Shown piece by piece: positions 26,754 to 60,940 of a DNA stretch of 64,000 bases (the first letter of the stretch is position 1; every line of letters begins with the position of its first letter). The notes below the pieces were generated by a model, which worked only from the letters and a program-made list of their open reading frames with translations, searched no databases and was not told the DNA's origin. The DNA comes from Oceanobacillus luteolus (GTDB lineage Bacteria > Bacillota > Bacilli > Bacillales > Amphibacillaceae): positions 62,001 to 126,000 of the forward strand of contig NZ_JAMBON010000002.1 of assembly GCF_023715655.1 (NCBI RefSeq), written 5' to 3'. A program made the translations under genes and the position numbers.

Positions 26754-28079
<1,326 letters not shown>

Positions 28080-28090
28080 ATCTATAGAAA

Positions 28091-28124
28091 ATACCCTAGG
28101 CTGAATTTAGTCTAGGGTATTTTT
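28091..28124 (+). terminator. Terminator of the glycolytic operon
   Basis: ATACCCTAG pairs with CTAGGGTAT (28112-28120), followed by TTTTT-rich sequence. Confidence 0.85.
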
Positions 28125-28169
28125 ATGCTTAACTTTCTAGGTTGTCATGTTCTAAAATTGCTAGAACAA

Positions 28170-29060
28170 CGGAAGTTCTCCTTATGCGTCCTTAGATGCT
28201 TTCTAAGGACGCGAATGGAGAGGGGAATGCCCTGTTACTTGTAGTTATAACCCTTGTAAGTACATGAATAGGCATGGGGATGGCTTGATTCGTGTTCTTA
28301 TAGCCTTTATAAGGACACGAATGGACATAAGAATGCATTGATACTTGTTCTTATATGCTTTGTAAGTGCATGAATAGGCATGGGGATGGACTTATTCGTG
28401 ATCTTATAGTCTTTATAAGGACACGAATGGACATGAGAATGCAGCGATACTTGTTCCTATATGCTTTGTAAGTGCATGAATAGGCATGGGGATGGACTCA
28501 TTCGTGTCCTTATACCCTTTATAAGGACACGAATGGACATGAGAATGCATTAATACTTGTTCTTATATGCTTTGTAAGCGCATGGATAGGCATTGGGATG
28601 GACTTATTCGTGTTCTTATAGTCTTTATAAGGACACGAATGGACATAAGAATGTATTGATACTTGTTCTTATATGCTTTGTAAGTGCATGAATAGGGATG
28701 GGGATGGACTTATTCGTGTTCTTATAGCCTTTATAAGGACACGAATGGACATGAGAATGCAGCGATACTTGTTCTTATATGCTTTGTAAGTGCATGAATA
28801 GGCATGGGGATGGACTTATTCGTGTTCTTATAGTCTTTATAAGGACAAGAATGGACATGAGAATGCAGGATTACTTGTACTTAGACCTCTTGTAAGTACA
28901 TGAATAGGAACGACGATGAGTTAATTCCTGTTCTTATAGCTTTACAAGGACATGAATGGACAGGAGAATACATGGTTACTTGTACTTATAACCCTCGTAA
29001 AGACTGGAATACCTCAAATGTCCACTTCCTGTCCTTACAGCAAAGAATACCCTCCTACTC
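28170..29060 (+). repeat. Tandem array of 106-bp units built from two alternating 53-bp hairpin elements
   Basis: The word GAATGG recurs at 28213, 28319, 28425, 28531, 28637, 28743, 28849 and (105 on) 28954. The companion word GAATAGG or close variants recurs at 28266, 28372, 28478, 28584, 28690, 28796 and 28902. Both series have a 106-base period and are offset by 53. The two half units, here called B and A, align with each other over most of their length. B contains a hairpin TTCGTGTTCTTATA, loop of five, TATAAGGACACGAA; A has a weaker version. In the first copy the arms are GCGTCCTTAG and CTAAGGACGC, changed on both sides yet still paired. The last copies are degenerate. No ORF, and no unique spacers as in CRISPR. 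The region fills the whole gap between eno and the nitroreductase. Confidence 0.95.
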
Positions 29061-29120
29061 ATTGTTCTTATTGTAGTGAGGTTACAGTATCGTTATAATC
29101 AATTTGAATGGGGGATGTAC

Positions 29121-29696
29121 ATGGATATATTACGAACGATAAAAGAAAGGCGTTCCACGCTTGCATTTAAAAATGAAGAGATCGATATTGCGACCTTAAA
29201 GGAGATATTTACATATGGTTCCTATGCACCAACCCACTATATGTCAGAAGCATGGCGAATTAAGCTTTATCAAGGAAAAGGAAAACAAATACTAGTCCAA
29301 GCCATTTTAAACAGTTATCAGCGTGTTGGGATGCTCCCCAAAGGTGATTCACCAAAAGCAGTTCGTTCCAGGGAGTCTATCGGTAATTTTCTCTTGACGA
29401 TTCCACATCATGCACTGATTTATTATGAAAAACCGCAAGACCGAATCCGTAATGAAGAAGAGTACTCATCGATTGCTGCATTTATCCAAAATTGTCAGCT
29501 TGCAGCTTGGGAATATGATATTGGAATGCTTTGGACGATAACGCCTTATATGCATGATGAACAGTTCATCAAAGAAATTGGGCTGGACCCAGATAAACAT
29601 AAAATTTCAGCTGTCTTGCAAATTGGTTATCCAGAAAAAGTGACGAGGGATAAGGGGAGAAAACCTGTTAAGGAGTTTCTTGAGGTAATCGAATAA
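29121..29696 (+). CDS. Nitroreductase family protein
   Basis: 191 residues from ATG 29121, seven bases after GGGGG; earlier in-frame starts (29076, 29115) lie in or before the Shine-Dalgarno. MDILRTIKERRSTLAFKNEEID gives the FMN-binding arginines, and the AAWEYDIGMLWTITPYMHD and LDPDKHKISAVLQIGYPEK region carries the second flavin-binding part. Family members reduce nitro or quinone compounds, or act in dehalogenation, using NAD(P)H; the substrate is unknown here. It stands alone between the repeat array and a strong bidirectional terminator. Confidence 0.9.
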   Translation: MDILRTIKERRSTLAFKNEEIDIATLKEIFTYGSYAPTHYMSEAWRIKLYQGKGKQILVQAILNSYQRVGMLPKGDSPKAVRSRESIGNFLLTIPHHALIYYEKPQDRIRNEEEYSSIAAFIQNCQLAAWEYDIGMLWTITPYMHDEQFIKEIGLDPDKHKISAVLQIGYPEKVTRDKGRKPVKEFLEVIE

Positions 29697-60826: not shown

Positions 60827-60850
60827 AGAACTTAATTGCATAGTAAAAGG

Positions 60851-60940
60851 TTTTCTAGGGTTCCGCAATTTTACGTTGGCCTGGTCCAAGGGAAAACCCA
60901 CAGCATTGCTGTGACACGGACGGATAAAAGCCTAGGAGAT
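60851..60940 (+). ncRNA. Guanidine-I (ykkC) riboswitch
   Basis: The conserved blocks of the ykkC class occur in order: CTAGGGTTCCGC (60855 on), GGCCTGGTCCAAGGGAAAAC then CCACA, GACACGGACGGATAAAAGCC and TAGGAGA. A variable hairpin (CAGCATTGCTG) separates them. In this class bound guanidinium stabilises the aptamer and prevents the downstream terminator, turning on guanidine exporters. The aptamer's 3' end (AGCCTAGGAGA) is the 5' arm of the terminator at 60929-60971, giving a clear switch. The two SMR genes follow directly. Confidence 0.93.

Follow-up and report, generated by a model that had tools for sequence, protein, structure and literature searches.

The tandem array downstream of the glycolytic operon in the 64,000-nucleotide stretch of the Oceanobacillus luteolus genome analyzed here (hereafter, the window) belongs to a class of dispersed intergenic arrays that occurs in some Bacillales. 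The class has a narrow pitch, a palindromic unit in many arrays, and conserved palindrome arms, and its members avoid divergent gene pairs and are targeted by insertion elements. What is new is a single pitch of about five helical turns across unlike sequences of one genome, together with the recurrence of that pitch and of a half-site in other families of the order. We tentatively favor, with confidence a little below an even call, the interpretation that the arrays are phased, BIME-like DNA sites for a protein or topoisomerase rather than an RNA sponge.

The window array comprises sixteen 53-bp units (positions 28183-29009, with no strand assigned) that alternate between two forms, A and B, to give a higher-order repeat of 106 bp. 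Tandem Repeats Finder places it at 28199-28990 with a period of 106, 7.5 copies, and a score of 1142. Unit starts, taken as anchor positions, advance in steps of 53 from 28183 and 28236 through 28872 (14 units), and the last two units start at 28924 (+52) and 28977 (+53). Each unit consists of an imperfect palindrome of 33 bp, with two 12-bp arms around a 9-bp loop, and a 20-bp spacer, and the A form reads TTCGTGYYCTTA-N9-TAAGRRCACGAA. The first A unit (28183-28215) has arms that are altered yet complementary (GCGTCCTTAG/CTAAGGACGC), a later A unit (28501-28533) is a perfect palindrome (TTCGTGTCCTTA-N9-TAAGGACACGAA), and a representative B unit (28342-28374; TACTTGTTCTTA-N9-TAAGTGCATGAA) makes a poor hairpin. 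A decayed first unit, with weak similarity to both arms, was read by eye at 28143-28175 (+ strand).

Pfam domains of GAPDH, PGK, TIM, iPGM, and enolase characterize the operon upstream, which ends with the enolase gene (26793-28079, + strand; an ORF matching Enolase_N and Enolase_C). Between this gene and the array, a hairpin search identified a 10-bp perfect inverted repeat followed by a T-run (28089-28122, + strand), which is the probable terminator of the operon; a consensus terminator scan did not flag these positions. The right neighbor is a nitroreductase-family gene (29076-29696, + strand; an ORF with a Pfam Nitroreductase match and with homologs) that probably starts at ~29115. The window also contains a Guanidine-I riboswitch at 60844-60940 (Rfam match). 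A first-pass annotation of this DNA had described the array, its position after a glycolytic operon, the complementary arms of the first copy, and a fully paired form TTCGTGTCCTTATA elsewhere, and had considered the array non-coding. The array is confirmed by its period of 106 and its sixteen units, its position by the five operon genes, and the arm sequences by direct inspection, the fully paired form being that at 28501; in addition, the array holds no ORF of at least 80 aa.

A whole-genome DNA search revealed matches to the window unit at further places, and a pattern search that allowed at most three mismatches identified 114 window-type palindromes, compared with none in a reversed control. 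Among the matches listed by a covariance model and a second pattern, window-type units fall into about 14 arrays, a count for which halves split by insertion elements were paired by eye. These units are spaced for the most part 52 or 53 bp apart; inner arm, loop, and spacer take a version particular to each array, and array edges look decayed by eye. Because about 14 listed arrays share this unit type, one isolated recent amplification was rejected; of the earlier suggestion of recent amplification plus constraint, only the constraint is retained, for the reasons given below. An origin from a phage or plasmid was likewise rejected, as phage and plasmid collections returned no match; one viral contig had a single match and no array.

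The flanks of an insertion element led to arrays of unlike sequence that have the same period. We surveyed 40 stretches of 20 kb each from this genome, amounting to 792 kb once three overlaps are removed, with Tandem Repeats Finder, accepting arrays with a score of at least 100 and a period of at least 18. In these stretches, which came from contigs already known and mostly away from fetched arrays and are not a random sample, 16 of the 18 tandem arrays judged non-coding have a period of 52, two of these (L174 and L183) having been known beforehand from insertion-element flanks, and the other two arrays have periods of 41 and 151. Non-coding here denotes little cover by ORFs of at least 90 aa, with one array (L188, 82% covered) added by hand, and an array shared by L078 and L180 was counted once. 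Three further arrays lie inside open frames (periods of 60, 21/42, and 21), and their inclusion gives 16 of 21. Periods of 21 and 42 are multiples of three, for which an open frame may arise by chance, and the proportion is more fairly given as between 16 of 18 and 16 of 21. A rough extrapolation from the survey plus the roughly 14 listed arrays suggests about 80-100 arrays in the whole genome, with a wide error.

The pitch is narrow within arrays as well. Among own-genome entries, many of which were picked for their period, the best lag within 38-67 is 52 or 53 in 37 of 38. Of 228 unit intervals in 36 of these entries (two short ones were left out), 190 measure 52, 26 measure 53, 11 measure 51, and one measures 54, such that a pitch of 52 or 53 accounts for 216 intervals, and adjacent units differ at 27% of positions. 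Array halves split by insertion elements were treated as separate entries in these counts and in the reflection counts described below. A pitch of ~52 bp corresponds to about five turns of the double helix, and higher-order periods of 104, 106, 156, and 208 occur. The same reading of stretches from ten other genomes yielded few 52-bp arrays and also other periods, such as 21, 40, 42, and 149. In relatives (loci L135, L139, L140, L147, L156, L158, and L167), we observed arrays with periods of 20, 21, 40, 41, and 42, several of which carry GCGCGATTT-like motifs and several of which lie inside open frames; the 42-bp period is near four helical turns.

Dyad symmetry was evaluated with a reflection score. 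With a clear dyad defined as a score that no more than 10 of 200 column shuffles reached, 14 of the 16 window-type entries have one and 2 do not, and among 20 entries belonging to other families of the genome the dyad is clear in 9 and unclear in 11. For entries with a clear dyad, we read ~33 bp of imperfect palindrome and ~19 bp of spacer. This outline is a matter of reading: the footprints of the best 8-bp arm pairs vary between 19 and 47 bp, and several of the pair scores lie within the shuffle range. Examples include TTCGGGCA-N17-CGACCGAA, TTCGTGAC-N17-GTCATGAA, TAATCAGA-N17-TTCGATTA, and, as read by eye, TTCGGGAA-N17-TTCCCGAA.

Conservation along the unit is not uniform, whereas uniformity would be expected of a neutral minisatellite. 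Across 17 window-type sets (the window array counted as two, two sets from Lentibacillus, and some decayed end units dropped), mean pairwise identity falls from 0.91 (outer arm) through 0.87 (inner arm) and 0.82 (loop) to 0.71 (spacer); the original detection of the arrays through their arms favors high arm values. The outer arm exceeds the spacer in 15 of the 17 sets (p = 1e-4) and the inner arm does so in 16. Since the arms exceed the spacers in identity, the palindrome appears to be under constraint, subject to this caveat of selection.

A second unit type, the TTCGGKC family, comprises 51-52-bp arrays that recur in other genera and families of the order. Its units were gathered with the pattern TTCGGKCNNTCA-N9-TGANYGACCGAA; excluding rows with six mismatches reduced the collection from 92 to 86, and removing identical rows left 79. 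Nine columns are at least 90% conserved and columns 8, 9, 25, and 26 fall below 70%, a division that is partly given by the pattern itself, and columns 6 and 28 are unpaired in 72 of the 79 rows, mostly as G versus A. In two other genera found with an earlier pattern that left columns 9-25 open, the inner letters are likewise TCA/TGA. A kept mismatch and conserved letters separated by free positions would fit a protein site better than a stem, with the reservation that the collecting pattern favored those letters.

Genes around the arrays show a modest bias in orientation. Among 25 arrays with a called gene on each side (the gene calls are crude), 16 lie between co-directional, eight between convergent, and one between divergent genes. 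Background gaps of at least 60 bp in the stretches comprise 233 co-directional, 58 convergent, and 76 divergent pairs (n = 367), and gaps of at least 250 bp comprise 89, 20, and 21, respectively (n = 130). Arrays avoid divergent gene pairs (1/25 versus 76/367), a tendency that is modest and weaker relative to the longer gaps (21/130). One array (L034:3740-4100) lies between rpoA-like and EcfA-like transporter genes, apparently in a ribosomal-protein cluster, as named by translation.

An insertion element with ends that we take to resemble IS256 inserts into these arrays. Its 11 left ends in the assembly (L052-L060, L012:7366, and L040:3694; contig ends of G000) include eight with a 52-bp array within the adjoining 260 bp (self-similarity of 0.48-0.89), compared with 0.9% of 6000 random windows that reach a self-similarity of 0.40 at a lag of 51-53. 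A ninth left end, which may be the other side of one of the eight, adjoins a single unit, and the remaining two adjoin no array. In five of the eight array insertions, which involve differing palindrome families, the palindrome edge is no more than one or two bases away from the presumed 8-bp target, as read by eye. A right-end piece of the same element also adjoins an array at L075:15119. Furthermore, a second element seems to split another array (starts of L033 and L039; contigs C109 and C162), where its presumed target duplication spans the same palindrome edge by eye.

Three genes of the NERD-domain family have a 3' end that adjoins a 52-53-bp array within about 110 bp: L073:13193-14113 (- strand; Pfam NERD), L037:2615-3479 (+ strand; matches in two frames), and L185:19362-20000 continued in L186:1-234 (- strand). 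These are all the family members in 0.99 Mb of own-genome loci (some of which overlap), and one of the three was fetched for its array; at E 1e-4, none was detected in 1.91 Mb of other fetched sequence, mostly from other genomes. The adjacency could be due to chance or could be a clue to a partner protein.

The taxonomic distribution of the window unit type is narrow. Among 27 sister species, a search with at most two mismatches gave one isolated weak match. At the same stringency, which would miss more diverged arrays, isolated matches were found in 6 of 158 other genomes of the family, including G087, which holds arrays in stretches that were chosen because of those arrays. In an exact-pattern scan of 84,980 species, each represented by one genome, the unit type was identified only in Lentibacillus sediminis, which has period-52 arrays with altered arms. 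The TTCGGKC type is more widespread. At fetched places with matches to it in other genomes, Tandem Repeats Finder identified 52-bp arrays at four of six in G009, one of two in G071, and three of three in G085. Matches to the TTCGGKC type were found in 10 of 397 genomes of the order, this genome included; 51-52-bp tandem arrays occur at the match in four of the nine others (G450, G457, G354 with 3 copies, and G434 with 2.7 copies and a variant arm) and not in the remaining five. Within the bacterial family, 84 of 159 genomes matched this type, most at the level of the reversed control, with G017 and G018 above it.

Comparison with G009 bears on the site itself. In G009 the enolase gene directly adjoins the same nitroreductase-family gene as in the window, and the gap after enolase is 189 bp long and contains no array, compared with 1038 bp in this genome. 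The array is therefore dispensable at the site after enolase. None of three syntenic sites in G009 (after enolase, cydB-cydC, and s_L077) holds a 52-bp array, and an array near its cyd genes lies at a different place. In three relatives, a gene that by translation is nucleoside hydrolase-like follows enolase; in one of these relatives the gene is broken. G009 carries its own palindrome families (L190 and L194), of TGGGACAAT and TGGGAAAG types, one of which forms a 52-bp array of 12 copies. It also has a repeated hairpin element of ~150 bp with a core like CAGTGGGG / CCCCCACTGAATGTTAGTTGAACAGA (L191:17623-17926, L191:8204-8566, and L196:18905-19130), and this element or a relative, by eye, occupies two sites that hold arrays in this genome.

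The BIME-2 of Escherichia coli are described as tandemly repeated units with strong DNA gyrase binding (PMC2817692). The arrays reported here are also tandem palindromes between genes that are targeted by insertion elements; they comprise short extragenic palindromes in high copy (the window type plus other families), and one insertion element has 8 of its 11 left ends in 52-bp arrays. REP-targeting IS elements are reported to span five families that include IS256 (PMC1525189). The arrays differ in that units run head to tail at ~52 bp, with many sequence families in one genome, whereas REPs in BIMEs are described as alternating in orientation, and in that the RAYT-like gene of this genome lacks a tandem array, whereas the E. 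coli RAYT gene is described as flanked by BIME-2 (PMC2817692). The REP tag, given as GTAG or CGTC at the foot of the palindrome (PMC3733652), occurs at most 8 bases outside or 4 inside the edge on either strand in 5 (GTAG) and 9 (CGTC) of 115 window-type palindromes, and within the same limits in 3 and 7, respectively, of 92 TTCGGKC-type palindromes. Because both the foot tag and a flanking RAYT fail in the tested families, we do not class the arrays as REP, though by analogy they may work like BIMEs. A further trait of REP and BIME elements is the binding of gyrase, IHF, or DNA polymerase I. Two arrays, at L073:7036-7450 and L188:4323-4968, have GTAG or CGTC in many units; counted anywhere in the unit, GTAG is found in 5 of 7 units of s_L073a, 4 of 9 of s_L078b, and 10 of 13 of s_L188, and CGTC in 11 of 13 of s_L188.

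Intergenic stem-loop repeats have been described in bacteria that include Bacillus, as the families Bhal-1, Bant-1, Bcr1, and others (Cozzuto et al., 2008; PMC2267715). The arrays resemble these as intergenic stem-loop repeats and are set apart from them by description, in that the main text of that study does not use the word 'tandem' and the sizes given for B. anthracis and B. halodurans are 72-167 bp. CRISPR likewise have regularly spaced partial palindromes, but the spacers in the arrays described here are also repeated (mean identity of 0.71 within sets). Since spacers recur within an array, it is the whole unit that repeats, unlike in CRISPR. A literature search yielded no description of such arrays; matches to the motif letters were listed, none of which was on the subject by title.

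CsrB-type multi-hairpin regulatory RNAs comprise a series of hairpins in an intergenic region, and the arrays are similar to them in this regard. If the arrays were transcribed, each unit could be an RNA hairpin that acts in a sponge, terminator, or stabilizer, and several folding results are in line with this. Compared with 20 shuffles, the window array as a whole folds much better on both strands (z of -9.6 and -8.4). Five window 33-mers were folded on the + strand, and the three A units among these form strong hairpins (z of -6.1 for the first unit, -7.1, and -8.9 for the perfect palindrome). The two B units, however, fold weakly on that strand (-6.4 kcal/mol and z of -1.96 each, including the representative at 28342), and the one B unit folded on the opposite strand does no better than shuffles (z of -0.36). 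The claim that each 53-bp half folds into a hairpin holds well for the A units folded and poorly for the B units. Compensating change, which the first-pass annotation had read as selection on structure, does not extend through the family: within-unit pairing in 52 distinct window-type units is 86.5%, compared with 86.4% when 3' letters are shuffled among units, and 222 of 500 shuffles are as high. In the cross-species TTCGGKC family, paired cells amount to 74.7% versus 71.4% when shuffled and both-sided changes to 46 cells versus 24.7, each above all 500 shuffles, while counts of changed pairs and of pair types are unexceptional (88 and 209 of 500 shuffles, respectively); structure or shared descent could be the source of the both-sided changes. 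Among other families of the genome, 17 of 20 consensus units have z above -2 relative to letter shuffles, as folded on the contig + strand. Among 16 co-directional arrays, a hand count showed the strand that folds better to be that of the flanking genes in 9 and the opposite one in 7. The arrays differ from CsrB-type RNAs in their many loci, in the poor folding of B units, and in showing neither a strand preference nor, in the window family, covariation. Moreover, the probable terminator precedes the window array, promoter-like sites are at the shuffle level (5 found, 5.5 expected), and Rfam gave no match to the array at the gathering threshold, its matches in the window being a tmRNA and the guanidine riboswitch elsewhere. 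An RNA sponge was not kept as the leading idea because the window family lacks covariation and 17 of 20 other-family units do not fold clearly better than letter shuffles; we regard a multi-hairpin RNA of any of these kinds as quite unlikely.

A selfish origin is the more plausible of the other alternatives, though on balance still rather unlikely. The units would then be REP-like mobile palindromes, dispersed and tandemly amplified by a transposase or nuclease without profit to the cell, with a pitch that is inherited or set by the enzyme. The patchy distribution described above (one weak match among sister species; the exact pattern in L. sediminis alone) and the empty site after enolase in G009 point in this direction, as does the presence of a single RAYT-like Y1 transposase gene beside six IS200-type copies that score alike (seven matches to PF01797). 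Yet the 3.3-kb locus of the RAYT-like gene has no tandem array (solo palindromes were checked by eye), and Tandem Repeats Finder detected none at five of the six other copies and only an array with a 151-bp period at the sixth, on which grounds a RAYT-borne REP was rejected. The RAYT-like gene (L215:1500-1830) adjoins a gene that is comM-like by translation. A mobile element with shared ends was rejected as well: a comparison of 76 array flanks of 250 bp each returned only insertion-element ends, a 60-bp piece of a NERD gene, and short matches (28 bp between the C109 and C162 flanks; 22 bp between the insertion element and the s_L188 flank). Passive parasites would also have no need for arms that are kept relative to spacers. 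That same conservation argues against a neutral minisatellite generated by replication slippage on hairpins, which we consider very improbable. Slippage or unequal exchange is evident in the higher-order periods and in array-specific homogenization, and the decayed-looking edges would suit such an origin. But one period is shared by unlike sequences of this genome and by other bacterial families, neighboring genomes read in the same way have periods such as 21, 40, 42, and 149, and the pitch is kept while adjacent units diverge, so that the arrays are not reduced to the neutral minisatellite that the first-pass annotation had named as the remainder should signs of selection be absent.

We return to the interpretation of the arrays as phased DNA sites, for which we propose protein binding, helical phasing, and a role in supercoiling. 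Each unit would then represent a DNA site of ~33 bp with dyad symmetry, and because successive sites follow one another head to tail at a pitch of ~52 bp, or about five helical turns, those of one array would all lie on one face of the helix. Such phased sites beside genes may be occupied by a protein that binds DNA as a dimer, by a topoisomerase, or by a nucleoid complex, on the model reported for DNA gyrase on the BIME-2 clusters of E. coli, and the occupied array could then build a regular nucleoprotein structure or absorb supercoils derived from transcription. Since arm sequences vary greatly between families, one protein could not read all arrays by sequence. The pitch of 52 could also be inherited from one ancestral array rather than selected, which would count against this interpretation. 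Among the alternatives raised in the first-pass annotation was a chromosome-structuring or protein-site array; the constraint that this entails is borne out by the arms and the pitch, and the structuring role itself is a candidate.

A bolder possibility, which we think unlikely, is that some Bacillales have a sequence-tolerant machine that makes or keeps palindrome arrays at five helical turns, in which pitch and dyad rather than letters are conserved and for which the NERD protein is a candidate partner. Such a machine, if it exists, would be a bacterial counterpart of a fixed, nucleosome-like repeat length. If the interpretation of phased sites is correct, some 80-100 regular palindrome arrays (the rough extrapolation given above) that share one metric would constitute a large and so far unexplained feature of this chromosome. 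The arrays would offer a clean case in which to separate conservation of palindromes by protein binding from that by RNA folding, and with them one could directly test if supercoiling in Gram-positive bacteria is organized by helically phased sites next to genes.
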